A stretch of 53,934 nucleotides of DNA from Sciscionella sediminilitoris (GTDB lineage: Bacteria > Actinomycetota > Actinomycetes > Mycobacteriales > Pseudonocardiaceae), in contig NZ_JALM01000006.1 of the NCBI RefSeq assembly GCF_000737195.2, positions 1 through 53,934 on the forward strand. Direction: 5' to 3'. The translations under genes and the position numbers were made by a program. Positions 15,750 through 37,871 of the stretch are shown here, piece after piece (within the stretch, counting starts at the first letter, position 1; each line of letters begins with the position of its first letter). The notes below the pieces were generated by a model that saw nothing but the letters and a program-made list of their open reading frames with translations, made no database searches and had not been told where the DNA came from.

Positions 15750-15776
15750 ATGTGCCCCGGCTGTGCGTGAGCTGTG
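15750..15776 (-). promoter_or_regulatory. Direct-repeat operator upstream of GT2-GtrA
   Basis: Plus-strand pentamers ATGTG (15750), CTGTG (15761) and CTGTG (15772) are spaced by 11 bases. They lie 35-61 bases upstream of the ATG at 15715, the same geometry as the regulator-gene site. Likely target of the adjacent OmpR-type regulator. Confidence 0.6.
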
Positions 15777-15848
15777 CGTGCGGGCCTGGCGCCGCAGGGC
15801 GATGATCTCTAGGCTGCGCTCGACAGGAATTCGCTGAAGGGAGCGTTC

Positions 15849-19651: not shown

Positions 19652-21133
19652 TCAACCTCCCGTCCGGGCGAGTTCTCGGGCATCGAGATGGCCGAAGACC
19701 GTGTCGGTATGTGGATCGGCACCGGCCGCGAGCGCGTAGCACCGTTCGGTGTGCACCGCGGCGCGTCGCTGTGCGTAGTCGACGGCCGAGTCCTTGCTGA
19801 CCATGAACGCCCAATCGCTCGCGAGCGCGAGCATCGCCTCCGAGGCGAGCCGGTCCAGCCGCGGATCGCGGAACTCGCCCGATTGATCATCTACCGCCGA
19901 TAGTAGAACATGTTGCAGTTTTTCGTTAGCCTCGACGATGTCCGCGACCTTGCCGCCCTCCCAGACCCGCCAGTCCTTCCCGGATCCCCAGGAGGAGGCG
20001 GGCAGCTCGACCGGGGCGCCGACGTGCCCGGACTCGGCTGCCCCGCGCAGCGTGGTCACCTCGATGCCCGCCTCGGGCAGCGCCCGCAGCACACCCTCCA
20101 GCCAGGCGGGACCCTCGTGCCACCAGTGCCCGTAAAGCTCGGTGTCGTAGGCGGCGACAACCAGTGAGGGCTTGCCGTGCCGCTCGCGCAGCTCGGTGAG
20201 CCGGGAGCGGACCAGGTCCACGAAATCGGCCACGTGCTTGTCCACGGCCCGCGCGGCCCGCTGTGGCTCGTAGGGCTTCTTCTCCCCGGGCGGCACCGTC
20301 TTCCCGGTCACCCGCGAGGGTTTGAGTCCGGAAGGGTGATCGAAGGTGTGGAAATCCCGGTAGGCCGGGTCGCCCGGATAACCGGACTTCGGTGACCACA
20401 CCCGGTAGGCGACCTCGAGATCCCGGCCGAAACAGAGCACATCCGAGTCACCGACCGGGCGCGCGGCCGCGGTGTCCCCGTGCAGCGCGGGACCGTCCAC
20501 CAGGAAGCGGCGCACCCCGGCGGCCGCGTATCCCGCCTCCATACCGGGGGAGTAGCCGCACTCCGGGGCCCAGATCCCCTCCGGCGTGGAACCGAGCCGC
20601 AGCGTGGTGTCCGCGAGCCCGCTGCGCAGCGCGAACTCCCGCAGCCGCGGATCGAGCAGCGGCTGGAAGGGATGGGTGACCGGACCGCCGAGCAGTTCCA
20701 CCGCGCGGGCGTCCACCAGGCGGCGCAGCAGCGGGGAGAACCCGTGCCGCCAGCGCGTCTCGAAGTCCTCCAGCGCGTGCTCGGCATCCCGGTACTCCGC
20801 CGCGGCCACCTCGCGCAGCAGCGGATCGGCCGAACGCCAGCGGTTCGCCGCGTACTGCGCGCGCACCGACCAGTTGCCCAGCCAGTCGTGCGCCCCGCGC
20901 AGGCTGTACGGATCGTCCAGCTGCGCCGCGAGCACCGGGGTCACGCCGAGGGTCAGCACGTCCTCGCGCCCTTCGGCGGCGAACCGTTCGAGCATCCGGA
21001 CCAGCGGCAGATAGGAGTGCGCCCAGGCCTGGTAGAGCCATTCCTCGCCGACCGGCCAGGTGCCGTGCCCGGCCAGCCAGGGCAGGTGACTGTGCAGCAC
21101 CATGCAGAAGGTGCCCAGTTTCTGCCCGGTCAT
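19652..21133 (-). CDS. GH57 1,4-alpha-glucan branching enzyme (Rv3031-like)
   Basis: 493 residues. The N-terminal HSHLPW (14-19) is the first GH57 motif. The nucleophile region GIWAPECGY places catalytic Glu191, and AAYDTELYGHWWHEG places the acid/base Asp330. The C-terminal helical domain of ~120 residues is that of the TT1467-type branching enzymes. It would introduce alpha-1,6 branches into the glucan made by the neighbouring GT4. M. tuberculosis Rv3031 has the same position next to Rv3032 and Rv3030. The start overlaps the end of the methyltransferase gene by four bases, ATGA on the minus strand. Confidence 0.92.
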   Translation of the reverse strand: MTGQKLGTFCMVLHSHLPWLAGHGTWPVGEEWLYQAWAHSYLPLVRMLERFAAEGREDVLTLGVTPVLAAQLDDPYSLRGAHDWLGNWSVRAQYAANRWRSADPLLREVAAAEYRDAEHALEDFETRWRHGFSPLLRRLVDARAVELLGGPVTHPFQPLLDPRLREFALRSGLADTTLRLGSTPEGIWAPECGYSPGMEAGYAAAGVRRFLVDGPALHGDTAAARPVGDSDVLCFGRDLEVAYRVWSPKSGYPGDPAYRDFHTFDHPSGLKPSRVTGKTVPPGEKKPYEPQRAARAVDKHVADFVDLVRSRLTELRERHGKPSLVVAAYDTELYGHWWHEGPAWLEGVLRALPEAGIEVTTLRGAAESGHVGAPVELPASSWGSGKDWRVWEGGKVADIVEANEKLQHVLLSAVDDQSGEFRDPRLDRLASEAMLALASDWAFMVSKDSAVDYAQRRAAVHTERCYALAAGADPHTDTVFGHLDARELARTGG

Positions 21134-21891
21134 GGGCGCACCGCCACGGCGACCAGGTCCAGGCTCTCCTCGAGCGCTTCGGCGTGCAGCGCGAAGTCCT
21201 CCGCGCGGATCGCGGTCACATCGGCGAGCAGCCCGGACGGCCAGCTCGCCTGTCCGGGGAGGGAATGCAGCACGACCTCGAGCTGCGCGTCGATGATCGA
21301 ACCTCCGTAACGGGCGTCGAGTTCACGCAGGCCGGGCCCGTGATGGACCCCGAGCAGTTCGCGCACCTCGAAACCGGCCGCGCTCAGCAGCCCGGCGAGC
21401 TCGGCAGGTGCGAGTTCCCTCGTATGGTACGGGTTCAGCGGGGTGTCCTGGCCCGGTGAGAAGGTCAGCCGATTGGGTGTGGTCACCAGCAGGATTCCGC
21501 CCGGGCGGAGCACCCGGTGGCAGTCGGCGAGAAAACCCTCCTGATCGGGGAGGTGTTCGAGCACCTGGGAGTGCATGATCACCTCGATCGCGCCGGTGCG
21601 GACCGGGATCCTGCCCAGGTCCGCCTGCACCGCGGGGACGCCGTACTCGGCGCGCACATGGCGCACCGCGTCCAGGTCGTAGTCCAGCGCGAGCACCGAG
21701 GCGGCGCGCTCGGCGATCATCGCGGCGCCGTAGCCCTCACCGCAGCCCGCCTCGAGCACCGCCCGGCCCGCGCAGTGCGGCAGCAGCTCCTGATAGGCGA
21801 TCTCGTGGCGGCGGAACCAGTAGTTCTCCTCGGCGACGCCGGGTACCGTGCGTTCCCCGGCCAGGTGCAGCGTCGTCTGCGGGTCGGTCAC
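21130..21891 (-). CDS. SAM-dependent methyltransferase (Rv3030-like)
   Basis: 253 residues. SAM loop VLEAGCGEGYGAAMIAE (about 45-61), acidic strand end LALDYD, IEVIMHSQVLEHLPDQ and VLRPGGILLVTTPN form a standard Methyltransf_11 core, with a ~80-residue C-terminal helical extension. In mycobacteria the orthologous position (Rv3030) is linked to O-methylation of methylglucose lipopolysaccharide; the specific position methylated is not settled. First gene of a three-gene operon with the branching enzyme and GT4. GTG start at 21891; a -10-like TACCAT lies about 28 bases upstream (plus 21919-21924). Confidence 0.85.
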   Translation of the reverse strand: MTDPQTTLHLAGERTVPGVAEENYWFRRHEIAYQELLPHCAGRAVLEAGCGEGYGAAMIAERAASVLALDYDLDAVRHVRAEYGVPAVQADLGRIPVRTGAIEVIMHSQVLEHLPDQEGFLADCHRVLRPGGILLVTTPNRLTFSPGQDTPLNPYHTRELAPAELAGLLSAAGFEVRELLGVHHGPGLRELDARYGGSIIDAQLEVVLHSLPGQASWPSGLLADVTAIRAEDFALHAEALEESLDLVAVAVRP

Positions 21892-22535: not shown

Positions 22536-23978
22536 TCAGGACAGTTCGGCCTCCGCGGCGGCGAGGGTGGCGAACTCCTCCTCGGGGGCGTTCGCCACCA
22601 GGTGATGCCGGCTGTAGAACCAGAAGTAGGCGATCAGCACGAGCAGGATGCCCGCGGTGATGAGTGCGGCGAGGATGTCCACCAGGAAGGTCGCCACGAC
22701 CGCGGCGACGGCGAGCACCATGGACACCGAGGTGGTCACCGCGCCTCCCGGGGTGCGGTACGGGCGGGCTAGCCCGGGTTCCTTACGGCGCAGCACGATG
22801 TGCGAGAGGTTGAGCAGCACATAGGACACGGTGGCGCCGAACACCGCGATGTTGATCAGCTTGGCGCCGTCCTGGGTGAGCGCGGCGAGCAGGAAACCCA
22901 CCGTTCCGGGCACGATCAGCGCCAGATACGGGGTCTTGCGCTTACCGGTGACCGAGAGCCAGCGCGGTAGGTATCCGGCGCGGGAGAGCGCGAACAGCTG
23001 GCGAGAGTAGGCGTAGATCGCGGAGAAGAAGCTGGCGACGAGCCCGGCCAGGCCCACGTAGTTGACCGTGGTGGCCAGCCAGCCGTCCCCGGCGGCGGCG
23101 CGCGCGGCCGCGGGGAGGGGATTGTCGCCGTGCCCGACGACGCTGGCCCCGCCACCGCCGGCGGTGGTGAACAGCACGGCGAACCCGAGCACGAGCAGCA
23201 CCCCCATGGCGAGCTTGATGCCGCGTGGCATGTCCCTGCGCGGATCGCGGGCCTCCTCGGCGGCCAGCGGCAGCCCTTCGACGGCGAGGAAGAACCAGAT
23301 GCCGTAGACCAGTGCGGCCAGGATTCCGGTGACCCCGAACGGGAGGAACCAGCTCGAACCGAAGGATCCGTTCGGCGGGATGTCGAACAGCCTCGCCGTG
23401 GAGAAGTGCGGGATCATGCCCGCCGCGAAGACCACGAGCCCGAGAATGGCGAGCACGGTGATCGCCAGCAGCAGCCGCAGTGCCTCGCCGACCCCGCGCA
23501 GGTGCACCCCCACGAAGATCGCGTAACAGACCAGGTACACCGGCCAGCCGTTGGTGATGCCGAACAGGTGCAGGGATTCCACGTAGCCGCCGATGAACAC
23601 CGAGATCGCCGCGGGCACGATCGCGTACTCGATCAGGATCGCCGCCCCGGTGGTGAAACCGCCGAGCGGGCCCAGCGCGCGGCGGGCGAACCCGTAACCG
23701 GCGCCCGCGACCGGGAGCGCGGAGGACAGTTCGGCGAGCCCGAGGGTCATCGTGGTGTACATGACGGCCATCAGCGCGGTGGCGATCAGCAGCCCGCCCC
23801 AGCCGCCGAGGGCGAGCCCGAACTGCCAGCCGGAATAGTTTCCGCTGATCACGTACGCGATGCCGAGACCGGCGAGCAGCACCCAGCCCGCCTGGCCGGT
23901 GCGCAGGCTCCGCGCTCGCAGGTAGTCCTTGCCGGCCACCTGGAAATCGGCGCCGGAGCGGTGCTGTGGTCCGTCCAT
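22536..23978 (-). CDS. APC-superfamily permease, ethanolamine type
   Basis: 480 residues with about 12 transmembrane helices. The first helices carry GIAYVISGNYSGWQFGLALGG and LAELSSALPVAGAGYGFARRALGP. This is the ethanolamine-permease (EAT) version of the amino-acid/polyamine/organocation family, in which a G-D/N-Y-x-G-W motif follows helix 1. It would import ethanolamine or a related small amine by cation symport. The start at 23978 has a strong GAGGAGG; the ORF extends further without a ribosome site. It is divergent from glnA4, with a 111-base promoter region holding an inverted repeat. Together they suggest uptake coupled to gamma-glutamylation. Confidence 0.82.
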   Translation of the reverse strand: MDGPQHRSGADFQVAGKDYLRARSLRTGQAGWVLLAGLGIAYVISGNYSGWQFGLALGGWGGLLIATALMAVMYTTMTLGLAELSSALPVAGAGYGFARRALGPLGGFTTGAAILIEYAIVPAAISVFIGGYVESLHLFGITNGWPVYLVCYAIFVGVHLRGVGEALRLLLAITVLAILGLVVFAAGMIPHFSTARLFDIPPNGSFGSSWFLPFGVTGILAALVYGIWFFLAVEGLPLAAEEARDPRRDMPRGIKLAMGVLLVLGFAVLFTTAGGGGASVVGHGDNPLPAAARAAAGDGWLATTVNYVGLAGLVASFFSAIYAYSRQLFALSRAGYLPRWLSVTGKRKTPYLALIVPGTVGFLLAALTQDGAKLINIAVFGATVSYVLLNLSHIVLRRKEPGLARPYRTPGGAVTTSVSMVLAVAAVVATFLVDILAALITAGILLVLIAYFWFYSRHHLVANAPEEEFATLAAAEAELS

Positions 23979-24005
23979 GCGAACCTCCTCACGCCATCGG
24001 GATGG

Positions 24006-24035
24006 TTGACACGAACTCACCCGGTTCTGTTTGAT
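24006..24035 (+). promoter_or_regulatory. Promoter of the glnA4 operon
   Basis: TTGACA (24006-24011), an 18-base spacer and TTTGAT (24030-24035) form the best -35/-10 pair in the window. Predicted initiation is near 24042. Confidence 0.55.
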
Positions 24036-24039
24036 GAAC

Positions 24040-24065
24040 TCAATGGGTCACTGTAGATCCATTGA
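24040..24065. promoter_or_regulatory. Inverted-repeat operator candidate between permease and glnA4
   Basis: TCAATGG (24040-24046) and CCATTGA (24059-24065) form perfect seven-base arms around a 12-base spacer. The site covers the predicted transcription start of the glnA4 operon and could also influence the divergent permease. A repressor such as the FadR-type protein at 32813 is one candidate ligand, but this is a guess. Confidence 0.5.
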
Positions 24066-24089
24066 CTCTTCAGCGGAAGGACCAAACGG

Positions 24090-25448
24090 ATGGCCGAACG
24101 CAGCGGGATGCTCGATCTCGCCGGGCTGCGCGCACTGGTGGACGCCGGAACGGTGGACACCGTCGTCGTCGCGATGACCGATATGCAGGGCAGGCTGGTC
24201 GGCAAACGGTGCTCGGCGCGGTTCTTCCTGGAGGAGGTGGCCGAACACGCGACCGAGGCGTGCAACTACCTGCTCGGCGTGGACGTCGAGATGGCCACGG
24301 TCGGCGGCTACGAGATCACCTCCTGGGAACGCGGCTACGGGGATTTCGTGCTGCGCCCGGATTTCGCCACGCTGCGCCTGCTTCCCTGGCAGCCGGGGAC
24401 CGCCCTGGTGCTCGCCGATGTGGAATGGCTGGACGGCGCCCCGGTCCCGGTCTCTCCGCGGCAGGTGCTGCGCGCCCAGCTGGACCGGCTCGCGGAGCGT
24501 GGGCTCGAAGCCTTCGTCGGCACCGAGCTGGAGTTCATGGTGTTCGAGGACAGCTTCGAATCCGCGTGGGACAACGGATATCGCGAGCTCACCCCGGCGA
24601 ACCGGTACAACGTCGACTACTCGATTCTCGGCGGCAGCAGGGTGGAACCGCTGCTGCGGGACATCCGCACCGCCATGGACGGTGCGGGGATGTACGTGGA
24701 ATCCGCGAAAGGGGAGTGTTTTCCCGGTCAGCACGAGATCGCGTTCCGGTACGGTCCCGCGCTTTCCAGCTGTGACAACCACACCATCTACAAGACCGGC
24801 GCGAAGGACATCGCGGCCGCGCACGGGAACAGCCTCACGTTCATGGCGAAATACGATGAGCGCGAGGGAAATTCCTGTCATATCCACATCAGCCTCCGGG
24901 ATCGTTCGGGTGGCCCGGTGTTCGCGGGCGGGAACGGAATGTCGCCGCTGATGAAGCATTTCCTCGCCGGACAGCTGGCGGGTCTGCGGGATCTCACCTA
25001 TTTCTTCGCGCCCAATATCAATTCCTACAAGCGCTACGCCCCGGGAAGTTTCGCGCCGACCGCGGTGGCCTGGGGGACCGACAACCGGACCTGCGCGCTG
25101 CGCGTGGTCGGGCACGGGCACTCGCTGCGCGTGGAGAACCGGGTGCCCGGCGGGGATGCGAACCCCTATCTCGCGGTTGCCGCCCTGATCGCGGCCGGGC
25201 TGCACGGGATCGAGAACGAGCTGCCCCTGGAGCCCGAACTCGCCGGGAACGCCTACACCGCGGACAAGCCTTCGGTGCCCGCCACCCTGCAGGAGGCCGC
25301 GGATGCCTTGGCGCACAGCGAGATCGCGCGCACCGCCTTCGGCGCGGATGTCGTGGCGCACTACCTCAACGCCGCGCGGGTCGAACTGACCGCGTTCGGC
25401 TCGACGGTCACCGATTGGGAGCGGACTCGTGGTTTCGAACGGTTCTAG
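24090..25448 (+). CDS. glnA4: Glutamine-synthetase-like gamma-glutamyl ligase (GlnA4 type)
   Basis: 452 residues of the glutamine synthetase fold. The N-terminal beta-grasp region is followed by the catalytic domain with metal ligands in GTELEFMVF, ESAKGECFPGQHE, NSCHIHIS, the ATP loop NSYKRYAPGSFAPTAVAWG and RVENRVPGGDANPYL. It is an ATP-dependent ligase joining glutamate to an amine, not a canonical GlnA. The neighbours match the M. tuberculosis order Rv2860c (glnA4)-Rv2859c-Rv2858c-Rv2857c, and Streptomyces coelicolor GlnA4 makes gamma-glutamylethanolamide. The adjacent ethanolamine-type permease supports that substrate; a polyamine remains possible. GGAAGG lies nine bases before the ATG. 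Confidence 0.88.
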   Translation: MAERSGMLDLAGLRALVDAGTVDTVVVAMTDMQGRLVGKRCSARFFLEEVAEHATEACNYLLGVDVEMATVGGYEITSWERGYGDFVLRPDFATLRLLPWQPGTALVLADVEWLDGAPVPVSPRQVLRAQLDRLAERGLEAFVGTELEFMVFEDSFESAWDNGYRELTPANRYNVDYSILGGSRVEPLLRDIRTAMDGAGMYVESAKGECFPGQHEIAFRYGPALSSCDNHTIYKTGAKDIAAAHGNSLTFMAKYDEREGNSCHIHISLRDRSGGPVFAGGNGMSPLMKHFLAGQLAGLRDLTYFFAPNINSYKRYAPGSFAPTAVAWGTDNRTCALRVVGHGHSLRVENRVPGGDANPYLAVAALIAAGLHGIENELPLEPELAGNAYTADKPSVPATLQEAADALAHSEIARTAFGADVVAHYLNAARVELTAFGSTVTDWERTRGFERF

Positions 25449-26145
25449 CGGTTCTCGGGCACCGGTCATCGGGCTCACCGCGTACGCCCAGCGCGCGCGG
25501 TTCGGCGTGTGGGACACCGAAAGTGTTGTGCTGCACCGGAACTACGTGGACGCGGTGAGCCGGGCCGGTGGAGTGGCCGTACTGCTTCCCCCGGTGCCCG
25601 GGACGGCGGAAGCCGTGGTGCGCGCGGTGGACGGGATCGTGCTCTCCGGTGGGCCGGATGTGGAACCCGCCCGCTACGGTGCCGCGCGTGCCGCCGAGAC
25701 CGGACCGCCCGCCGAGGACCGCGACGGGTTCGAACTGGAACTCGCGCGGGCGGCACTGGATCGCGGGCTGCCGATTCTGGGCGTGTGCCGGGGATTGCAG
25801 ATCCTCAACACCGGGCTCGGTGGCACCCTCGAACAGCACATCGAGGATCCGAGGGCGCCGACCCATCAACCGGCTCCCGGGGAGTTCGGCGCGCACGAAG
25901 TGACCGTCGCCCCGGGCTCACGGCTCTCCGGGGTGCTCGGCGAGCGGGCCGGGGCGCGCTGTCATCACCATCAGGCGATCGGGCGGCTCGCCGAAGGATT
26001 GCGCGCGGTGGCGCACGCCGGAGACGGCACGATCGAGGGCGTGGAGCTGCCCGGGGAATCGTTCGTGCTCGCGGTGCAGTGGCATCCCGAGGCCGCGCGG
26101 GGAGACGACAGATTGTTCGAAGCACTGGTACGGGAGTGTGTATGA
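25429..26145 (+). CDS. Class I glutamine-amidotransferase-like gamma-glutamyl hydrolase (PuuD/Rv2859c type)
   Basis: 238 residues of the class I GATase fold. Nucleophile Cys120 is in GVCRGLQILN, catalytic His219 and Glu221 are in VQWHPEA, and the oxyanion loop SGGPDVEP is at 73-80. PuuD in E. coli hydrolyses gamma-glutamyl-GABA; the context here suggests cleavage of an oxidised gamma-glutamyl intermediate such as gamma-glutamylglycine to glutamate plus the free amino acid. The start overlaps glnA4 by 20 bases and the end overlaps the dehydrogenase start (ATGA), so the three are translationally coupled. Confidence 0.88.
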   Translation: MVSNGSSGSRAPVIGLTAYAQRARFGVWDTESVVLHRNYVDAVSRAGGVAVLLPPVPGTAEAVVRAVDGIVLSGGPDVEPARYGAARAAETGPPAEDRDGFELELARAALDRGLPILGVCRGLQILNTGLGGTLEQHIEDPRAPTHQPAPGEFGAHEVTVAPGSRLSGVLGERAGARCHHHQAIGRLAEGLRAVAHAGDGTIEGVELPGESFVLAVQWHPEAARGDDRLFEALVRECV

Positions 26146-27500
26146 GTTTCGCCGTTGTCAATCCGTCGACCGAGCAGGTGATCCGCTCGATCGAGCTGGC
26201 GAGCGCGGAGGAGGCCGACGCCGCCATCGCGAAGGCGCATGAGGCCTGGCCCGCCTGGCGCGAGCTCGCCCCCGGGCGGCGCGCGGAACTCCTGCGCGCC
26301 TTCGCCGATGAGGTCGACGCGGACCTGGAGAATCTCGCCAGGCTCGAGGTGGCCAATTCCGGGCACACGATCGGGAACGCGCGCGGCGAGGCGGGCAATG
26401 TCCGGGATGTGCTGCGGTACTACGCGGCTGCTCCGGAACGGTTGTGCGGCAAGCAGATCCCGGTCGCGGGCGGACTGGACGTGACCTTCCATGAACCGCT
26501 CGGCGTGGTCGGGGTGATCGTGCCGTGGAACTTCCCGATGCCGGTCGCCGGCTGGGGTTTCGCGCCCGCGCTCGCCGCGGGGAACACGGTGGTGCTCAAA
26601 CCCGCGGAGAACACTCCGCTCACCGCACTGCGGCTGGCCGAGCTCGCCGAACGCGCCGGGATCCCCAGCGGGGTGTTCACCGTGCTTCCGGGGCTCGGAG
26701 ACGTTGTGGGGCAACGGTTCGTGGACAATCCGGTGGTGCGCAAGGTGGTGTTCACCGGGTCCACGCGCACCGGGAAACGCGTGATGGCCGGTGCGGCGAA
26801 CTCGATCAAACGGGTCACCCTCGAACTCGGCGGGAAGAACTCGAACATCGTGTTCGCCGACGCGGATCTGGACCGCGCCGCGGCCGCGGCCCCCTACGGC
26901 GTGTTCGACAACGCGGGCCAGGACTGCTGTGCCCGCTCGAACATTCTCGTCGAGCGCCCGGTTTACGAGCGGTTCCTGGAACGCATGGAACCGGTGGTGC
27001 GCGGGTTCGCCGTCGGGGACCCGGCCCGGGAGAGCACCGAGATGGGACCGCTGATCTCGGCTGCACACCGGGAGAAGGTGCGTGGCTACGTGGACGGCGC
27101 ACCGGTCGCGTACACCGGTTCCGCGCCGCAGGGACCCGGTTTCTGGTTCCCGCCGACCGTGCTCGCCCCGATCGCCGCGGACCACCCCGCGGTCACCGAG
27201 GAGGTGTTCGGCCCGGTGGTCTCGGTGCTGCCCTTCGACACCGAGGCCGAGGCGGTCGGGCTGGCCAACAACACCGAGTACGGGCTCTCCGGTTCCATCT
27301 GGACCCGTGATCTGGCCAGGGGGATCCGCGTCTCCCGCGGGGTGCGGGCCGGGAATCTCTCGGTCAATTCGCATTCCGCGGTGCGGTACCACACCCCGTT
27401 CGGCGGTTTCGGGCAGTCCGGGATCGGCAGGGAGCTCGGCCCGGACGCGGCCGAGGAGTTCACCGAGACCAAGAACGTATTCATCAGCACGGAGGAATAG
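26142..27500 (+). CDS. NAD(P)-dependent aldehyde dehydrogenase (AldC/PuuC type)
   Basis: 452 residues. Cofactor-binding PWNFP (128-132) and KPAENTP (153-159), FTGSTRTG (204-211), general-base Glu228 in LELGGK and nucleophile Cys262 in NAGQDC are all present. It oxidises an aldehyde to the acid in the cytosol. In this operon the likely substrate is the gamma-glutamyl aldehyde produced after ligation of the amine and oxidation of the alcohol or amine end. The ATG overlaps the previous stop, so co-translation is expected. The length is slightly shorter than typical 480-500 residue members, but all motifs are complete. Confidence 0.92.
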   Translation: MSFAVVNPSTEQVIRSIELASAEEADAAIAKAHEAWPAWRELAPGRRAELLRAFADEVDADLENLARLEVANSGHTIGNARGEAGNVRDVLRYYAAAPERLCGKQIPVAGGLDVTFHEPLGVVGVIVPWNFPMPVAGWGFAPALAAGNTVVLKPAENTPLTALRLAELAERAGIPSGVFTVLPGLGDVVGQRFVDNPVVRKVVFTGSTRTGKRVMAGAANSIKRVTLELGGKNSNIVFADADLDRAAAAAPYGVFDNAGQDCCARSNILVERPVYERFLERMEPVVRGFAVGDPARESTEMGPLISAAHREKVRGYVDGAPVAYTGSAPQGPGFWFPPTVLAPIAADHPAVTEEVFGPVVSVLPFDTEAEAVGLANNTEYGLSGSIWTRDLARGIRVSRGVRAGNLSVNSHSAVRYHTPFGGFGQSGIGRELGPDAAEEFTETKNVFISTEE

Positions 27501-27504
27501 GGAT

Positions 27505-28269
27505 ATGCAACGGTTCGAGGGCAAGAGCGTGGTCATCACCGGGGGAGCGAGCGGGATCGGCCTGGCCGCGGCGCGCCGCTTCGCCGAAGAAGGGGCCACC
27601 GTGGTGATCGGCGACCTGGACGAGGAGAACGGCCCCCGGTACGCGGCCGAACTCGGCGGGCACTTCGTCCGGGCCGACGTGGCCGAGCGGGATCAGGTGG
27701 AGAACCTGTTCGCCGAGACGAAACGGCGCTGCGGCAGCGTGGATGTCGCCTTCAACAACGCGGGAATCTCCCCGAACGACGACGGTTCCATTCTGGAGAC
27801 CGGGATCGAGGCCTGGGAGCGGGTGCAGCGGATCAATCTGACCAGCGTCTACCACTGCTGCAAGGCGGCCATCCCGTACATGCGCGAGCAGGGCAAGGGC
27901 TCGATCGTGAACACCGCGTCGTTCGTCGCGGTCATGGGCGCGGCGACCAGCCAGATCTCCTACACCGCCTCCAAGGGCGGAGTGCTGGCCATGACCCGCG
28001 AGCTCGGTGTGGAGTTCGCCCGCGAGGGGATCCGGGTGAACGCGCTGTGCCCCGGACCGGTGAACACCCCGCTGCTCAAGGAACTGTTCGCGAAGGACCC
28101 GGAGCGTGCCCAGCGGCGGCTGGTGCACGTGCCGGTCGGGCGGTTCGCCGAGCCGGAGGAGATCGCCGCGGCCACCGCGTTCCTCGCCAGTGACGACGCC
28201 TCGTTCATCACCGCATCGGAATTCCTCGTGGACGGCGGCATCTCCGGCGCCTACGTCACCGCGATCTGA
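27505..28269 (+). CDS. Short-chain dehydrogenase/reductase (Rv2857c-like)
   Basis: 254 residues of the classical SDR fold. TGGASGIG (12-19) binds the cofactor, NNAG (84-87) stabilises the sheet, and the catalytic tetrad is Asn111, Ser139, Tyr153 and Lys157. Asp at the end of strand 2 (IGDLDEEN, ~37) favours NAD over NADP. It is often annotated as 3-oxoacyl-ACP reductase, but its place in the glnA4 operon points to oxidation of an alcohol, for instance gamma-glutamylethanolamide to the aldehyde used by the upstream dehydrogenase. Four bases separate it from that gene. A strong terminator follows. Confidence 0.9.
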   Translation: MQRFEGKSVVITGGASGIGLAAARRFAEEGATVVIGDLDEENGPRYAAELGGHFVRADVAERDQVENLFAETKRRCGSVDVAFNNAGISPNDDGSILETGIEAWERVQRINLTSVYHCCKAAIPYMREQGKGSIVNTASFVAVMGAATSQISYTASKGGVLAMTRELGVEFAREGIRVNALCPGPVNTPLLKELFAKDPERAQRRLVHVPVGRFAEPEEIAAATAFLASDDASFITASEFLVDGGISGAYVTAI

Positions 28270-28275
28270 GACCGT

Positions 28276-28312
28276 CCTGGTCACACCGGGTCGATCACTC
28301 GGTGTGACCAGG
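28276..28312 (+). terminator. Intrinsic terminator after the glnA4 operon
   Basis: A perfect 13-base inverted repeat (28276-28288 with 28300-28312) encloses an 11-base loop. It starts six bases after the SDR stop. No T run follows. It separates the glnA4 operon from the riboswitch-controlled operon. Confidence 0.75.
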
Positions 28313-28357
28313 GTGTCCACTCCTTGGTGACGGGTTTCCGGCGCCCGGCGCAGCCGC

Positions 28358-28363
28358 TACACT
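28358..28363 (+). promoter_or_regulatory. -10 element TACACT of the glycine-riboswitch operon
   Basis: TACACT lies about 40 bases upstream of the first aptamer core, predicting initiation near 28370. The -35 is weak (GTTTCC or TTTCCG region near 28335). Confidence 0.45.
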
Positions 28364-28395
28364 GCCGGGCGACAACAAGATACGGGCCGCTACGG

Positions 28396-28575
28396 CGCGG
28401 ACGGGAGAGCTCGCGGATGCGGGCACCGAAGGAGCAACCACCCCGGCAAACTCTCAGGTCCAGATACCGTCCATCGCCAGGCCACTCTGGAAAGCGGGCA
28501 TCCCGGATGCCCCACCAACGGTGCAAGTCGCCCCCGCGGCGGCGAAGCTCTCAGGTCCCATGACAGAGGGGGAGT
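28396..28575 (+). promoter_or_regulatory. Glycine riboswitch (tandem aptamers)
   Basis: Two aptamer-like halves are visible. The first has GGGAGAGC (28403-28410), CACCGAAGGAGCAACC (28444 region), AACTCTCAGGTCCAGATACCG (28449-28469) and a closing CTCTGGA (28495-28501). The second has CACCAACGGTGCAAGTC (28513-28529), GAAGCTCTCAGGTCCCATGAC (28544-28564) and AGAGGGGG. The repeated CTCTCAGGT and CACCxACGG/AAGG cores are the conserved glycine-binding elements. It lies directly upstream of gcvT, as expected for a switch that turns on glycine cleavage when glycine is abundant. Exact ends are approximate. Confidence 0.9.
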
Positions 28576-28578
28576 TCC

Positions 28579-28598
28579 CACGGGTGAGGCCACCCGTG
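28579..28598 (+). promoter_or_regulatory. Expression-platform hairpin downstream of the glycine aptamers
   Basis: CACGGGTG and CACCCGTG form a perfect eight-base stem with a four-base loop just after the second aptamer. It may act as a terminator or an RBS-sequestering structure controlled by glycine binding. No T tract follows. Confidence 0.5.
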
Positions 28599-28622
28599 AC
28601 GCCGGACCGAGAGGAGCTCCCG

Positions 28623-28664
28623 ATGGACCGAGAACCAGGCTGCGCCCGTAGGCTCGTGGGGTGA
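28623..28664 (+). CDS. Possible 13-codon leader peptide before gcvT
   Basis: GAGGAG lies six bases before an ATG that opens MDREPGCARRLVG and stops at a TGA (28662-28664) overlapping the GTG at 28661 of the gcvT frame. This ribosome site is stronger than anything ahead of gcvT. Translation could be coupled through the overlap. It may equally be chance; conservation in relatives would decide. Confidence 0.3.
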   Translation: MDREPGCARRLVG

Positions 28665-29743
28665 CCATGAGCACAAGCCCCTTACAGGACGTACACGCCG
28701 AACTCGGCGCCAACTTCACCGATTTCGCGGGCTGGCAGATGCCGCTGCGCTACGGCAGCGAGCTCGCCGAACACAAGGCCGTGCGGGAGTCGGCGGGCCT
28801 GTTCGACCTCTCGCACATGGCCGAGATCGCGGTGACCGGCCCGGGCGCGCTCGCCGCGCTGAACTACGCCTTCGTCGGCAACATCGGCACCGTGAAACCG
28901 GGCCGCGCCAGGTACACGATGCTCTGCGACGCGAACGGCGGAGTGCTCGACGACCTGGTCGTGTACCACACCGGGGAGAACGAATACCTGGTCGTGGCGA
29001 ACGCGGCCAACCACGATGTGGTGCTCGCGGAGCTGACCGAACGCGCGGGCGGCTTCGACGCCGAGGTGACCGACCGGACCTTCGAGACCGCGCTCATCGC
29101 GCTGCAGGGCCCGGAATCGGCGGCCATCATCGCCGAGCACAGCGATACCGAGCTCGACACGCTCAAGTACTACGCGGCCCGCCCGGCCACCGTCGCCGGG
29201 CTCGAGGTGTTGCTCGCCCGCACCGGATACACCGGGGAGGACGGGTTCGAGCTCTACCTGCCGAACGCACAGGCCCCCGAACTCTGGCGGGTGCTCGCCG
29301 CGCACGAAGAGGTCCTGCCCTGCGGGCTCGCCAGCCGGGACACGCTGCGCCTGGAAGCGGGAATGCCGTTGTACGGCAACGAACTCGGCACCGGGACCAC
29401 GCCCGCGGACGCCGGGCTCGGGCGTGTGGTGCGGTTCGACAAGGAGGGGGACTTCGTCGGCAGGCAGGCGCTCGCCGATGCCGAACAGACCCGCAAGCTC
29501 GTGGCGCTGCGCGGTACCGGGCGCCGCGCCCCGCGTACCGGCTACCCGGTGCTCGCGAACGGAGCACCGATCGGGGAGATCACGTCCGGCGCGCTGTCAC
29601 CCACGCTTGGTTACCCCATCGCGCTCGCCTATGTTGAGCTCGGAAATGCCGAGGAGGGCACCGAGCTCGCGGTCGACATCCGCGGCCGCTCGACCGAGCC
29701 GGTGACCGTCGTCGCACTGCCTTTCTACCGTCGAGGAGAGTAA
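28661..29743 (+). CDS. gcvT: Aminomethyltransferase, T protein of the glycine cleavage system
   Basis: 360 residues from the GTG at 28661, or 358 from the ATG at 28667. The folate-binding fold is recognisable from NFTDFAGWQMPLRYGS near the N-terminus, GLFDLSHMAE (47-55), the conserved Asp pair DDLVVY (97-102, one of which protonates tetrahydrofolate), ARTGYTGEDGFELY and LRLEAGMPLYGNEL. It transfers the methylene group from aminomethylated GcvH to tetrahydrofolate and releases ammonia. It is followed after three bases by gcvH. The P and L proteins of the system are not in this window. Confidence 0.95.
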   Translation: MTMSTSPLQDVHAELGANFTDFAGWQMPLRYGSELAEHKAVRESAGLFDLSHMAEIAVTGPGALAALNYAFVGNIGTVKPGRARYTMLCDANGGVLDDLVVYHTGENEYLVVANAANHDVVLAELTERAGGFDAEVTDRTFETALIALQGPESAAIIAEHSDTELDTLKYYAARPATVAGLEVLLARTGYTGEDGFELYLPNAQAPELWRVLAAHEEVLPCGLASRDTLRLEAGMPLYGNELGTGTTPADAGLGRVVRFDKEGDFVGRQALADAEQTRKLVALRGTGRRAPRTGYPVLANGAPIGEITSGALSPTLGYPIALAYVELGNAEEGTELAVDIRGRSTEPVTVVALPFYRRGE

Positions 29744-29746
29744 GAC

Positions 29747-30130
29747 ATGACCATCCCGAACGAGCTTCGCTACAGCAAAGAGCACGAATGGATCGCCGTG
29801 GACGGGGATGTCGCCACGGTCGGGATCACCGCCTTCGCCGCCGAGGCGCTCGGCGACGTGGTCTTCGTGCAGCTGCCGGCGGTCGGGGAGAACATCGGCA
29901 AGGGCGATGCGATCGGTGAGGTGGAGTCCACCAAGTCGGTCAGCGATGTCTACTCGCCGCTCTCCGGGGAGATCACCGAGGTCAACGGGGCCACCGAGAC
30001 CAACCCGGAGACGGTCAACGAAGCCCCCTACGAGTCCGGCTGGCTGTTCAAACTGCGGCTCTCCGACACCGGTGAGCTCGATGCGCTGCTCGACGCGGGC
30101 GCGTACGCGGAACTGATCAAGGAGGCATGA
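29747..30130 (+). CDS. gcvH: Glycine cleavage system H protein
   Basis: 127 residues, the normal length. The lipoyl-carrying Lys63 sits in [14 protein letters not shown], with the surrounding beta-hairpin and conserved GEVTEVN-type and [13 protein letters not shown] segments. It shuttles the aminomethyl group between the P, T and L proteins. GAGGAGAG precedes the ATG. The end lies next to the glyA start, and the ATGA at 30127 gives a second possible coupled start for that gene. Confidence 0.96.
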
Positions 30131-30135
30131 TTTCC

Positions 30136-31395
30136 ATGAGCACCTTCGAACAGGCACTCGCCGAGGTCGACCCCGAGGTCGCCAAATCGGTGAACGCGGA
30201 GCTGCACCGCCAGCAGCAGACCCTGGAGATGATCGCCTCGGAGAACTTCGCTCCGGTCGGTGTGCTCGAGGCGCAGGGTTCGGTGCTGACCAACAAGTAC
30301 GCCGAGGGCCTGCCCGGGCGGCGCTACTACGGCGGCTGCGAATTCGTGGACGAGGTGGAGAACCTCGCCCGGGACCGGGTGAAGTCGCTGTTCGGCGCCA
30401 AGTACGCGAACGTGCAGCCGCACTCCGGGGCGCAGGCGAACGCCGCCGCGATGTTCGCGATGCTCAAGCCCGGTGACACCATCCTCGGTCTCGACCTCGC
30501 ACACGGCGGGCACCTGACCCATGGGATGAAGATCAACTTCTCCGGCAAGCTCTACAACGTGGTGCCCTACCACGTGGACGACACCGGCCGGATCGACATG
30601 GGCGAGGTGGAAAAGCTCGCCAGGCAGAACCAGCCGAAGCTGATCGTGGCCGGCTGGTCGGCGTACCCGCGCCAGCTCGACTTCGCCGAGTTCCGCAGGA
30701 TCGCCGACGAGGTCGGTGCGCTGCTGCTGGTGGACATGGCGCACTTCGCCGGACTGGTCGCCGCCGGGCTGCACCCGAACCCGGTGGAGCACGCGCACAT
30801 CGTGACCACCACGACGCACAAGACCCTCGGCGGGCCGCGCGGCGGAGTGATCCTCACCAACGACCCCGAGCTGTCCAAGAAGATCAATTCCGCGGTCTTC
30901 CCCGGACAGCAGGGCGGTCCGCTGGAGCACGTGATCGCGGCCAAGGCGGTGGCGTTCAAGGTCGCCGCTTCCGAGGAGTTCGCCGACCGGCAGCGGCGTA
31001 CCGTGGAAGGTGCGCGGATCCTCGCCGAGCGGCTCGCCGCCAAGGACTGCGCCGAGGCCGGGGTCAAACTGCTCACCGGGGGCACGGATGTGCACCTGGT
31101 GCTCGTCGACCTCGTGGAGTCCACTTTGGACGGTCAGCAGGCGGAGGACCGCCTGCACCAGATCGGGATCACGGTCAACCGCAACGCGGTGCCGAACGAT
31201 CCGCGTCCGCCGATGGTGACCTCCGGGCTGCGGATCGGCACCCCGGCACTGGCCACCCGTGGTTTCGGCACCGAGGACTTCACCGAGGTCGCCGAGATCA
31301 TCGCGGCTGCGCTGAAACCCGAGTGCGATGAGGCGGCGCTGCGTGAGCGGGTGGCCGCACTGGTCGCCAAACATCCGTTGTACCCGGCGCTGTAG
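30136..31395 (+). CDS. glyA: Serine hydroxymethyltransferase
   Basis: 419 residues. The PLP lysine is Lys229 in [14 protein letters not shown]. The family motifs [37 protein letters not shown] and [10 protein letters not shown] are all intact. It interconverts glycine plus methylene-tetrahydrofolate and serine, and uses the one-carbon unit formed by GcvT. GGAGG is ten bases before the ATG at 30136 but only one base before the ATG at 30127, so the later start is preferred. A second glyA may exist elsewhere, since many actinomycetes carry a separate housekeeping copy. Confidence 0.95.
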
Positions 31396-31420
31396 CCGGC
31401 CTCGTCGAAGGAGCGCGCGC

Positions 31421-32794
31421 ATGGCCATCAGCGTGTTCGACCTGTTCTCCATCGGTATCGGACCGTCCAGCTCCCACACCGTCGGCCCCATGCGCGCGGC
31501 ACGCATGTTCGTCGCGGGACTCGCCTCGGATGGTGAGCTTCCCGCGACGAAACGCGTCGCGGCCGAGCTCTACGGATCGCTGGGCGCCACCGGTTTCGGG
31601 CACGGCAGCGACAAGGCCGTGCTGCTCGGACTCGAGGGTGAGGACCCGGAGACCGTGGACACGGCCACCGTCGCCGAGCGGGTCGAGCGGATCCGCGCGG
31701 TCGGCCAGCTGTGGCTGGACGGTAAGTGGGAGATCGATTTCGTCGAGGACACCGATCTGGTGCTGCACCGCAGGAAATCCCTGCCACAGCACCCGAACGG
31801 GATGATCTTCCGGGCCTTCGACGCGGCGGGGAACCCGCTGCGCGAACGGACCTATTACTCGGTCGGCGGCGGTTTCGTGGTGGACGAGCGGGCCGCGGGC
31901 GCGGACCGGATCACCCCGGACACCACCCCGGTCGCCCACCCGTTCCATTCCGGGCGGGAACTGATCGAGGCGGCGAACGAGGCCGGGCTGCCCATTTCCG
32001 GGGTGATGCTGGAGAACGAGCAGTCCTGGCGGGCCGCCGAGGACATCCGCTCCGGGCTGCTGCGCATCTGGCGGGTCATGCGCGAATGCGTGGACAGCGG
32101 CTGCGCCACCGAGGGCACCCTGCCCGGCGGGCTCAAGGTCAAACGGCGCGCCCCGGAGCTCTACCGCAAGCTCTCCGGTGAGCCGTTCTCCACCGACCCG
32201 CTGCGCGTCATGGACTGGGTGACCCTGTTCGCCCTCGCGGTGAACGAGGAGAACGCCGCCGGCGGGCGGATCGTGACCGCGCCGACCAACGGCGCCGCCG
32301 GGATCGTGCCCGCCGTGCTGCACTACTACTGGCGGTTCGTGCCGGGGGCGAACGAGGACGGCGTGGTGCGGTTCCTGCTCACCGCGGGCGCGATCGGCGT
32401 GCTGTACAAGGAGAACGCCTCCATCTCCGGCGCCGAGGTCGGTTGCCAGGGCGAGGTGGGCTCGGCGTGCTCGATGGCGGCCGGGGCACTGTGCGAAGTG
32501 CTCGGGGGCACCCCGAAACAGGTGGAGAACGCCGCCGAGATCGCCGTGGAGCACAACCTCGGGCTCACCTGCGATCCGGTCGGCGGACTGGTGCAGATCC
32601 CGTGCATCGAGCGCAATGCGGTCGCCTCGGTCAAGGCGATCACCGCGGCACGGATGGCCATCCGGGGCGGCGGGGAGCACTACGTCTCGCTGGACAAGGC
32701 GATCAAGACGATGCGCGAGACCGGTGCGGACATGAAGCGCAAGTACAAGGAGACCGCGCGCGGCGGGCTCGCGGTCAACGTCATCGAGTGCTGA
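31421..32794 (+). CDS. sdaA: Iron-sulfur L-serine ammonia-lyase
   Basis: 457 residues, single-chain type II serine dehydratase with the beta domain ([20 protein letters not shown]) at the front and the alpha domain after about residue 190. Cluster ligands are Cys342 and Cys350 ([11 protein letters not shown]) and Cys384 (LTCDPVGG). [14 protein letters not shown] is also diagnostic. It converts serine to pyruvate and ammonia using a [4Fe-4S] cluster. AAGGAGC precedes the ATG. Its position after glyA completes a route from glycine to pyruvate within one transcript. Confidence 0.95.
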
Positions 32795-32800
32795 GGGCAC

Positions 32801-32806
32801 TAGTGT
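32801..32806 (+). promoter_or_regulatory. -10 element TAGTGT (leaderless)
   Basis: TAGTGT lies six bases ahead of the GTG at 32813, so the regulator can be transcribed separately from sdaA. Confidence 0.4.
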
Positions 32807-32812
32807 GGTGGC

Positions 32813-33541
32813 GTGACTGAGCACCTCGAGGTTCCCATCGCCGGGGCGGCGCTGCTGCGCCCGGTCCGCGCGGGCAACGCCTTCGAGGAGACCGTGGAGC
32901 GGGTGCTCCAGGCGATCCGGCTCGGGGTGCTGGGCCCGGGGGACCGGCTGCCCGCCGAACGGGAACTGGCCGCGCGCCTCGCGGTCTCCCGGGCGACGCT
33001 GCGGGAAGCGCTGCACGCGCTCGCCGAGGCCGGATACGTGGAATCGCGCCGCGGCCGTTATGGCGGCACCTTCGTCACCGGGACCGAACCGGAAACGGGG
33101 GCGGCGGAGCAGCAGGGCACCGAGGACTCCGTGGAGGACGTGCTGGTGCTGCGCGGGGTACTGGAACCGGGTGCGGCCGCGGCAGCCGCGGAGACGGAGC
33201 TCACCGAGCAGGCGCGGGAACACCTGCGGTCCCAGCTGAGCGCGAGTTCGGGAAGCGCCCTCGAGGAGTACCGCCGCAAGGATTCCCGGCTGCATCTGGC
33301 GATCGCCGAGGTCACCGGTTCGGCCTCGCTGACCGCCGCGGTCGCGGATGTGCGGTCCCGGGTCAACGGGTTGCTCGACCGGATCCCGTTGCTCGAGCCG
33401 AATCTGGCGCACTCCGATGAGCAGCACGAGCGGGTCGTCGGCGCGATCCTGGACGGTGATCCGGAGGCCGCGCGGGTGGCGATGGCCGAGCATCTCGCGG
33501 GCACCGCGGCGCTGCTGCGCGGCTTCCTCTCCGGTACCTGA
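32813..33541 (+). CDS. FadR-family (GntR superfamily) transcriptional regulator
   Basis: 242 residues. The N-terminal winged helix contains GDRLPAERELAARLAVSRATLREALHAL, the GntR signature, and the wing RRGRYGGTFV. The C-terminal FCD ligand domain has the His/Asp set that usually binds a metal: DSRLHLAI, HSDEQHERV and AMAEHL. It probably represses an amine or amino-acid catabolic operon and is released by a small acid. It sits directly after sdaA, so it is a candidate controller of the glnA4 or permease promoter. No operator match can be proven from sequence alone. Confidence 0.88.
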   Translation: MTEHLEVPIAGAALLRPVRAGNAFEETVERVLQAIRLGVLGPGDRLPAERELAARLAVSRATLREALHALAEAGYVESRRGRYGGTFVTGTEPETGAAEQQGTEDSVEDVLVLRGVLEPGAAAAAAETELTEQAREHLRSQLSASSGSALEEYRRKDSRLHLAIAEVTGSASLTAAVADVRSRVNGLLDRIPLLEPNLAHSDEQHERVVGAILDGDPEAARVAMAEHLAGTAALLRGFLSGT

Positions 33542-33646: not shown

Positions 33647-34342
33647 GTGAGTGAACGGGCGGATGTCTGGATGGTCATCCCGGTGTTCAATGAGGGTCAG
33701 GTCATCGCCGAGGTGGTCCGCGAGGCCAGGCGCACCTTCCCCAACATCGTCTGCGTGGACGACGGCAGCCGGGACAACTCGGCGAGCGAGATCCACGCGG
33801 CCGGGGCACACCTGGTGCGCCATCCGGTGAACCTCGGCCAGGGCGCCGCGCTGCAGACCGGCATCGAGTACGCCCGGGCCCAGCCGGGCGCCGAATACTT
33901 CGTCACCTTCGACGCGGACGGCCAGCACCAGGTCGAGGATGTGCTCCGGATGCTGCACCGGCTGCGCACCGAGGAGATCGACATCGTGGTGGGCACCCGC
34001 TTCGGCAAATCGGCCGACACCAGCCACATTCCCTGGCTCAAGCGATTCGTGCTGCGCACCGTGGTGCTGCTGTCCCCGCGTACCCGCAGGCTCGGGCTCT
34101 CCGACGCGCACAACGGGCTGCGTGCCTTCAACCGCAAGGTCGCCTGGGACATCAACATCCGGCTCAACGGCATGGGGCACGCCTCCGAACTCGTGCACAT
34201 GATGGATGTGCACCGCTGGCGGGTCGCCGAGGAACCCGTGACCATCCTCTACACGGCGTACTCCATGTCGAAGGGCCAGTCCCTGTTCAACGGGGTCAAC
34301 ATCGTGTGGGATAGCGTGCTCAAGACCGGACCTAGGCGGTGA
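33647..34342 (+). CDS. GT2 polyprenyl-phosphate sugar synthase (PpgS/Rv3631-like)
   Basis: 231 residues, a compact GT-A domain. DDGS (38-41) binds the nucleotide and FDADGQHQ (88-95) the metal and sugar. It lacks membrane helices. M. tuberculosis Rv3631 (PpgS) makes polyprenyl-phosphate N-acetylgalactosamine for galactosamine decoration of arabinogalactan, with the membrane protein Rv3632 as partner, and the gene pair here is the same. The donor sugar is therefore probably UDP-GalNAc, but other hexosamines are possible. The GTG start follows GGAGGA. It overlaps the next gene by four bases. Confidence 0.85.
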   Translation: MSERADVWMVIPVFNEGQVIAEVVREARRTFPNIVCVDDGSRDNSASEIHAAGAHLVRHPVNLGQGAALQTGIEYARAQPGAEYFVTFDADGQHQVEDVLRMLHRLRTEEIDIVVGTRFGKSADTSHIPWLKRFVLRTVVLLSPRTRRLGLSDAHNGLRAFNRKVAWDINIRLNGMGHASELVHMMDVHRWRVAEEPVTILYTAYSMSKGQSLFNGVNIVWDSVLKTGPRR

Positions 34343-36913: not shown

Positions 36914-36966
36914 GTGTGGTGAGAACCATCACGGGATTCACGCGCCTGTGCTGGTTGCGCCGCCGC

Positions 36967-36980
36967 TACCGATAAGTAAC
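36967..36980. promoter_or_regulatory. Imperfect palindrome in the etfB leader region
   Basis: TACCGATAAGTAAC is roughly symmetric (TAC-N6-GTA core) and sits 109 bases upstream of the etfB start. TetR-type lipid regulators of actinobacteria often bind sites of this general shape. Weak evidence. Confidence 0.25.
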
Positions 36981-37088
36981 ATCAGCCTCGACCTGTGCAA
37001 ATCCGCATGTCATGGCAAGGTTTGCGCAATCGGGAAAGCAGCAAGAAACCAGCTAGGCCCATTTACACGAGGAGGTCGAGGCAGACCG

Positions 37089-37871
37089 ATGAACATCGTC
37101 GTCCTTGTCAAGCAGGTGCCGGACACCTATTCGGAGCGCAAACTCAGCGATGCCGACAGCACGCTCGACCGCGACTCCGCCGACGCCGTGCTCGACGAGA
37201 TCAATGAGAAGGCCGTCGAGCAGGCGCTGCAGATCAAGGAAGCCGGAGAGGGCGAGGTGACCGTGGTCTGCGTCGGCCCCGACCGGGCGACCGACGCGAT
37301 CCGCAAGGCGCTCTCCATGGGCGCGGACAAGGCCGTGCACGTCTGCGACGACGCCCTGCACGGTTCCGACGTGCTCGCCACGGCCAAGGTGATCGCCGCG
37401 GCGATCGGCAAGGGCGACGCGCCCGACCTGGTGCTGGCGGGCAACGAGGCGACCGACGGCGGTGGCGGGGCGATCCCGGCCATCCTGTCCGAGCTGCTCG
37501 GCCTTCCGCAGCTGACGCACGCCCGCGAGGTCAGCATCGAGGGCCAGACGGTCAAGGCCACCCGGGAGACCGACGAGGGCCTGACCTACCTCGAGGCGAA
37601 CCTGCCCGCGATCGTCTCGGTCGCGGAGAAGATCAACGAGCCGCGGTACCCCTCCTTCAAGGGCATCATGGCCGCGAAGAAGAAGCCGGTCGAGACGCTC
37701 ACCGTGGCCGACCTCGGGGTCGACGCCGGTGAGGTCGGCCTGGGCAACGCCTGGTCCACGGTCACCGAGGCCGCGCCGAAGCCCCCGCGCGCCGCGGGGC
37801 AGAAGGCCGAGGACGAGGGCGACGGCGGCACCAAGATCGCCGAGTACCTGGTCGCGCAGAAGCTGATCTGA
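37089..37871 (+). CDS. etfB: Electron transfer flavoprotein beta subunit (FixA)
   Basis: 260 residues. The ETF-beta domain opens with NIVVLVKQVPDTYSERK, has the AMP-binding loop VLAGNEATDGGGGAIPAILSE (about 118-138) and ends with a basic/acidic tail leading to KIAEYLVAQKLI, the arm that wraps around the alpha subunit. With EtfA it accepts electrons from acyl-CoA dehydrogenases and passes them to an ETF:quinone oxidoreductase. Start at 37089 is marked by GAGG elements; a longer ORF upstream lacks support. The pair corresponds to M. tuberculosis Rv3029c/Rv3028c. Confidence 0.95.
   Translation: MNIVVLVKQVPDTYSERKLSDADSTLDRDSADAVLDEINEKAVEQALQIKEAGEGEVTVVCVGPDRATDAIRKALSMGADKAVHVCDDALHGSDVLATAKVIAAAIGKGDAPDLVLAGNEATDGGGGAIPAILSELLGLPQLTHAREVSIEGQTVKATRETDEGLTYLEANLPAIVSVAEKINEPRYPSFKGIMAAKKKPVETLTVADLGVDAGEVGLGNAWSTVTEAAPKPPRAAGQKAEDEGDGGTKIAEYLVAQKLI

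Follow-up and report, generated by a model that had tools for sequence, protein, structure and literature searches.

A glycine-riboswitch operon nested in a predicted ethanolamine-glutamylation cluster of Sciscionella sediminilitoris and related actinobacteria

In Streptomyces coelicolor, SCO1610-SCO1615 hold glnA4, genes for an aldehyde dehydrogenase (ALDH), a short-chain dehydrogenase/reductase (SDR) and a glutamine-amidotransferase-type protein, and the gene of EpuRI, the repressor of glnA4, and a permease gene is added to this cluster in other Streptomyces (Krysenko et al. 2019, PMC6529630). According to the text of that paper, glutamylation of ethanolamine by GlnA4 was shown and the later steps to glycine and glutamate were only proposed, the last being given to SCO1615, a protein of formylglutamate-amidohydrolase type. 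A Streptomyces gcvT-gcvH-glyA-sdhA operon is described under a glycine riboswitch (PMC12452182), and Phaeobacter MED193 has a TRAP-linked cluster that rises with phosphatidylethanolamine (PMC10132767). We analyzed a stretch of 53,934 nucleotides from Sciscionella sediminilitoris (contig NZ_JALM01000006.1 of assembly GCF_000737195.2), hereafter the window, in which positions 22536-28269 correspond to the published GlnA4-type ethanolamine-glutamylation cluster and positions 28392-32794 to a glycine-riboswitch gcvT-gcvH-glyA-sdaA operon. The source genome has 7.4 Mb and is 96.87% complete.

An earlier note on this DNA, made from its letters alone, had described two adjacent operons. All the genes it named were found, but the glycine operon is nested rather than adjacent, because the flanking SDR gene and the gene of a FadR-type regulator, here called epuR, both belong to the ethanolamine cluster. 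It is quite probable that the two known units form one catabolic unit that leads from ethanolamine through glycine to pyruvate and carries two sensors. The two glycine riboswitches of Streptomyces griseus reportedly act by activation, which the title of Tezuka and Ohnishi (2014) is said to state.

The gene set and the proposed chemistry, ending in glycine and glutamate, are those of the S. coelicolor GlnA4 cluster. However, the S. coelicolor regulator gene is divergent from glnA4 and glycine genes are not mentioned in the accessible text (PMC6529630), whereas in the window the regulator lies downstream, with the riboswitch operon in between. Gene order and tandem riboswitch are shared with the Streptomyces glycine operon, which is described without ethanolamine genes, the word ethanolamine being absent from the main text (PMC12452182). 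Phaeobacter MED193 likewise has an ethanolamine gamma-glutamylase, dehydrogenases and a gamma-glutamylglycine amidohydrolase, but differs in its TRAP transporter and RpiR regulator, and the accessible text mentions neither a riboswitch nor gcv genes (PMC10132767). Both halves are known; the recurrent nesting, the place of the regulator and the candidate operator appear to be new. The earlier note knew of no description of the linkage, and no paper joining ethanolamine and glycine modules was found in openly licensed PMC text, although subscription papers may differ. Contexts of glycine riboswitches are treated in PMC6944388 and PMC12452182, and glutamine synthetase occurs in neither main text.

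Nesting was mapped in the GTDB family of the window, Pseudonocardiaceae, to which 38 of the 80 named closest glnA4 loci belong. Among 150 sampled genomes, 87 (window included) have a glnA4 of at least 63% identity, and these loci were mapped in stretches of 4-20 kb. Glycine genes lie downstream of the SDR gene, on the same strand, in 31 of the 87 loci and in 11 of 30 genera, which rules out that the arrangement is confined to one genome. In those 11 genera nesting was found in every sampled genome with glnA4, and the regulator follows the glycine genes where the contig is long enough and the regulator is kept. Five of the 31 calls were set by hand. In L049 (G020), gcvT-gcvH-glyA-FadR lies beyond a long insert; L071, L074, L079 and L086, all of genus g27, were set as nested because the first query set had no GcvP. 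Among these four, GcvP was confirmed by Pfam in L079 only, an ORF of equal length (967 aa) is present in L071 and L074, and L086 rests on gcvT and the riboswitch core.

The linked module differs in make-up from clade to clade (gcvTH-glyA-sdaA, gcvPTH-glyA, gcvPT-sdaA, glyA-sdaA alone, gcvTH-sdaA). The block is gcvT-gcvH-glyA-sdaA in the window and its genus and gcvP-gcvT-gcvH-glyA in Prauserella (L186); the Amycolatopsis loci have the latter or gcvP-gcvT, two of them with sdaA in reach. A lipoyl-synthase-like gene is included in the block of L043. In Kibdelosporangium-type loci glyA-sdaA follows a segment of several kb, with tRNAs in L046 (6708-6966) and L188 (14217-14289), which suggests a mobile element integrated inside the cluster. 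One locus titled Rhodococcus rhodnii (L178) is laid out like those of Kibdelosporangium (L175 and L176), with similar identities to the window, and is possibly a mislabelled assembly. The four g27 loci keep the ethanolamine genes, the riboswitch core and gcvT, plus gcvP where checked, and lack both EpuR and the palindrome described below; in two of them, L071 and L086, no ALDH was seen.

Linkage was also found beyond the family. Among 40 loci from other families, hand-chosen for diversity, four are linked, all of them in family f31 (4 of its 7 loci), with gcvT-gcvH-sdaA after the hydrolase gene, in a different order. This layout recurs in Sphaerisporangium fuscum (L241, Streptosporangiaceae), so f31 is presumably Streptosporangiaceae. 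In two metagenome-assembled genomes of Rubrobacteraceae (L234 and L249), the same strand carries a riboswitch and split gcvP genes further downstream. Linked glycine genes occur within the 10-kb flank in 20 of 80 named loci (drawn from 577 relatives). On a quickly built tree of 136 GlnA4 proteins, 8 changes of the linked state are required, by parsimony suggesting about six gains and two losses, and a grouping of all 31 nested family rows in a single clade was rejected (p_AU 0.00265); L249 was scored as not nested in this tree despite its riboswitch and gcvP genes 9.5 kb downstream. No genome with two gcvT genes of at least 59% identity was found among the matches listed, and therefore the nested gcvT appears to be the main copy of the genome, moved here, and not a spare. 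In the text of PMC6529630, the steps of GlnA4 catabolism towards glycine are, beyond the first, a matter of prediction. That modules for sensing and burning glycine were repeatedly placed within the ethanolamine cluster or next to it, in three families of actinobacteria, supports glycine as the product and supplies independent genomic evidence for it.

The two operons might instead be neighbors by chance, or by general conservation of the region, without functional meaning. This would agree with the 56 of 87 family loci not seen nested and with the Streptomyces-type and named Streptomyces loci, where glycine genes were not seen near glnA4. However, same-strand downstream linkage occurs in 11 family genera and two other families, the module contents differ, and a single clade of nested rows was rejected. 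Furthermore, the genes that flank the unit in the window (U1-U3, D1 and D2) were seen close by in just one further sampled genome, the other one of this genus, so the linkage does not reflect general regional synteny. The recurrence largely refutes this explanation, which we rejected as very improbable.

The FadR-type regulator, which the earlier note had counted with the glycine operon, belongs with the ethanolamine cluster, and accompanies glnA4 even in genomes that have gcvT at a distance of megabases (G021 is an example). Homologues of the window regulator are 57-70% identical outside the genus. A local regulator of the glycine operon, unrelated to ethanolamine, would fit the position of epuR in the window, 18 nt after sdaA by ORF and on the same strand. 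However, in the 56 non-nested family loci the regulator comes directly after the SDR gene in 44 and upstream of glnA4 in 7; it is lacking in 5 by the script rule, among which L084 is actually compact, its two matches touching. No FadR homologue was present in any of the six stand-alone gcv stretches examined. The regulator thus follows glnA4 and not gcvT across loci, and an assignment to the glycine genes was rejected as hardly credible. This places the regulator in the correct gene set.

In six Streptomyces-order loci the regulator is 55-56% identical to that of the window and divergent from glnA4, which is the published place of EpuRI. One SCO1614 reverse-transcription (RT) primer lies inside this Streptomyces-type regulator gene, with no mismatch in L162 and a single one in each of L163 and L165; the other primer of the pair has 2 mismatches in L162, L163 and L164. 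The start-codon primers of SCO1614 match at 2 mismatches only, so the support comes from the RT pair, and two SCO1614 primers or parts gave no match within 2 mismatches in the six loci. The glnA4 primers match L163 and L165 with 0 mismatches. These RT primer matches, the EpuRI position and the constant company of glnA4 indicate indirectly, by position and primers rather than by direct comparison with the SCO1614 sequence, that the window regulator is probably the EpuRI orthologue.

A palindrome, CAAWGG-N12-CCWTTG, is a candidate operator for EpuR, and its position in front of glnA4 also argues against a regulator of the glycine genes. It was found with at most 1 mismatch in 81 of 127 glnA4 promoters, against a mean of 0.08 after shuffling. 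The palindrome was derived from the same promoters in which it was counted, and a scan of the whole genome is the less circular check: the sole perfect copy lies at 24041-24064, and four other places have one mismatch (5 sites, against 50 matches for the control pattern read backwards). The 127 loci contain 118 sites with at most 1 mismatch; 107 are within the glnA4 promoter, and the other 11 likewise lie upstream of glnA4, none downstream. Both regulator and palindrome occur in 77 loci, the regulator only in 30, neither in 16 and the palindrome only in 4. Of these last four, L060, L075 and L077 are truncated at the end of a contig, and L049 has its regulator on the far side of the insert. The regulator was found on another contig of the genome for L060 and L075, and was not found for L077, whose genome is 74% complete. 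In 14 of the 30 regulator-only loci the best site has at least 3 mismatches; all 14 are outside the family, with regulators 50-64% identical to that of the window. A search for an EpuR site ahead of the glycine operon found none: the other matches in the window have 3 mismatches, and the 26 matches in all are at chance level.

Rfam supports the glycine riboswitch proposed in the earlier note (Table 1). A second aptamer was not reported by Rfam at E<=10, though its core columns are conserved in an alignment of 7 sequences. Apart from the window, 20 linked loci were submitted to Rfam, and in all 20 of them RF00504 heads the glycine module. The core was also found by regular expression in 30 family loci, window included, with TAnnnT 42-52 nt before it; the expression missed 5 of 35 loci (L167, L170, L171, L172 and L241), all of other families and all positive in Rfam. 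The terminator of the earlier note was upheld in part: the hairpin is strong (-36.3 kcal/mol for a 69-nt stretch, z -3.24), but without a U-run it is only terminator-like. The claim of a complete route fails for the two operons alone, because gcvP is outside both, at 12808-15693 of contig C137, preceded by a tandem glycine riboswitch of its own (15750-15956). Glycine cleavage in the source genome is therefore divided over two riboswitch operons, with gcvP under a separate riboswitch as in the Streptomyces system. Regarding the product-sensing linkage proposed earlier, the coupling of the modules beyond this genome and the riboswitch at the head of the module were borne out, and the placement of the regulator and the completeness of the route were not.

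The window glnA4 is predicted to act on ethanolamine. GlnA4 keeps all 12 published residues that were checked (for metal, glutamate, nucleotide and flap) when the numbering is offset by 10, the best fit; the next best offset gives 3 of 12. The model-dependent D69 and D81 read N and V, and V189 reads I. It is 64-68% identical to the proteins of the Streptomyces-type loci. Linked genes for an SDR, an ALDH, an amidotransferase-type hydrolase and an ethanolamine permease complete the cluster in the window. Ligation of polyamines, which the earlier note had named as fatal to its proposal, is disfavored, since the gamma-glutamylputrescine synthetase model NF045547 gives 199.3 bits against a cut-off of 650 and the GlnA4 residues are kept. 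A classical eut route through ethanolamine ammonia-lyase was also rejected: EutB was not found in the genome at its given completeness (PF06751, 0 matches, with a positive Escherichia coli control). The pathway might still proceed by glutamylation of another amine or amino alcohol, with ethanolamine as a side substrate. Glutamine synthetase (GS)-like enzymes are promiscuous as a class, and the window GlnA4 scores below the cut-offs of all four NCBIfam GS-type models that it matched. We find this unlikely, because the permease, as the earlier note had it, exceeds the curated ethanolamine-permease cut-off, the published residues are kept, and a substrate that becomes gamma-glutamylglycine on glutamylation and oxidation would be in keeping with the repeated recruitment of glycine genes. 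A second glnA4-like gene, with 59-61% identity to the window protein, is present in G016, G055, G066, G085, G107 and G124.

In the proposed unit, ethanolamine would be imported and glutamylated by GlnA4 to gamma-glutamylethanolamide, which the SDR and the ALDH would oxidize to gamma-glutamylglycine, and the hydrolase would then release glutamate and glycine. EpuR may sense the ethanolamine side; it would most likely repress at 24041-24064, judging from deletion data in S. coelicolor and from the palindrome. In the inner module, between the SDR gene and epuR, the riboswitch would sense this glycine and open gcvT-gcvH-glyA-sdaA, and with the GcvP encoded elsewhere glycine may be converted to serine and then to pyruvate and ammonia. 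Two ethanolamine would give two glycine and these one serine, one CO2 and ammonia, followed by pyruvate; the balance from glycine to pyruvate is the standard biochemistry of the glycine cleavage system, serine hydroxymethyltransferase and serine dehydratase. One cell would sense the substrate side through EpuR and the product side through the riboswitch, a natural circuit with a protein repressor and a riboswitch at the two ends of one pathway.

The glycine riboswitch may also set the level of EpuR, since epuR is the last gene behind it in the window and in most nested family loci. Glycine would then raise the repressor together with the glycine-burning enzymes, an end-product feedback on the pathway that makes the ligand of the riboswitch. 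We put this forward only tentatively and regard it as somewhat doubtful. In nine related loci about 32-47 nt separate the SDR stop codon from the start of the riboswitch core. Transcription driven by ethanolamine would there continue into the riboswitch, which could give a glycine-gated read-through requiring ethanolamine and glycine. The chances are about even that the linkage is instead metabolic only, epuR being expressed from its own promoter inside sdaA or by read-through, and the riboswitch not setting the repressor level. In f31 and the Streptomyces-type loci the regulator is upstream, divergent and outside the glycine block, and in four nested loci the gap before the FadR gene is 233-1427 nt, which leaves room for a promoter. 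However, the gap from block to regulator is only 18 nt in the window and, among the 24 nested family loci that allowed its measurement, at most 142 nt in 20.

Several findings weigh against one catabolic unit. Coupling of the two modules is optional, since the 56 non-nested family loci (at least two of which, L077 and L122, are too short for a decision) and 36 of the 40 loci outside the family, including the six Streptomyces-type loci, were not seen linked. Some nodes of the tree are weakly supported, which makes the count of origins uncertain, and instead of arising several times nesting may have been gained once, long ago, and then lost many times. In the window the strong hairpin parts the two halves of the unit, and its glycine block has no gcvP. 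The Kibdelosporangium-type blocks consist of glyA-sdaA only, with no gene of the cleavage system, and 30 of 107 regulator-bearing loci have no close palindrome. Finally, the window hydrolase is a Peptidase_C26 protein, whereas SCO1615 is of the formylglutamate-amidohydrolase type in the text of PMC6529630.

Table 1. Features of the ethanolamine-glycine locus, in window positions
Feature	Position	Strand	Evidence and remarks
Ethanolamine permease (APC family)	22536..24020	-	TIGR00908, 481 bits vs cut-off 381.75; divergent from glnA4
Palindrome CAATGG-N12-CCATTG, candidate EpuR operator	24041..24064		Permease/glnA4 intergenic region
glnA4, predicted gamma-glutamylethanolamide synthetase	24090..25448	+	Gln-synt_C; 12/12 checked published residues kept
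Gamma-glutamyl hydrolase, class I amidotransferase type	25429..26145	+	Peptidase_C26, 6.2e-63; proposed gamma-glutamylglycine hydrolase
ALDH	26142..27500	+	Aldedh, 6.4e-157; proposed gamma-glutamylacetaldehyde oxidation
SDR	27505..28269	+	PRK06057, 478.4 bits vs cut-off 404; proposed gamma-glutamylethanolamide dehydrogenase
Hairpin 3' of SDR gene, 17 bp	28275..28313	+	Terminator-like, without U-run
TACACT, -10-like element, proposed promoter of riboswitch operon	28358..28363	+	TAnnnT spacing kept in family loci
Glycine riboswitch aptamer 1	28392..28479	+	RF00504, 56.4 bits vs gathering 32
Second glycine aptamer, diverged	~28480..28575	+	Core columns conserved in 7-sequence alignment
gcvT	28661..29743	+	TIGR00528, over cut-off
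gcvH	29747..30130	+	TIGR00527, over cut-off
glyA, serine hydroxymethyltransferase	30127..31395	+	NF000586, over cut-off
sdaA, L-serine dehydratase	~31421..32794	+	TIGR00720, over cut-off; start chosen from sequence
epuR, FadR-type (GntR/FCD) regulator	32813..33541	+	Probable counterpart of EpuRI (SCO1614)

Directly downstream of epuR, at 33647-34342, there is a gene for a PpgS-type polyprenyl-phospho-N-acetylgalactosaminyl synthase (NF058614, 392.7 bits vs cut-off 370). A glucan-branching-type enzyme and an adjacent methyltransferase are encoded on the minus strand at 19652-21891, and the beta subunit of an electron-transfer flavoprotein at 36948-37871, in each case with matches below the curated cut-offs. 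These genes resemble the mycobacterial Rv3031-Rv3030 / Rv3029c neighborhood, with the ethanolamine-glycine unit in between.

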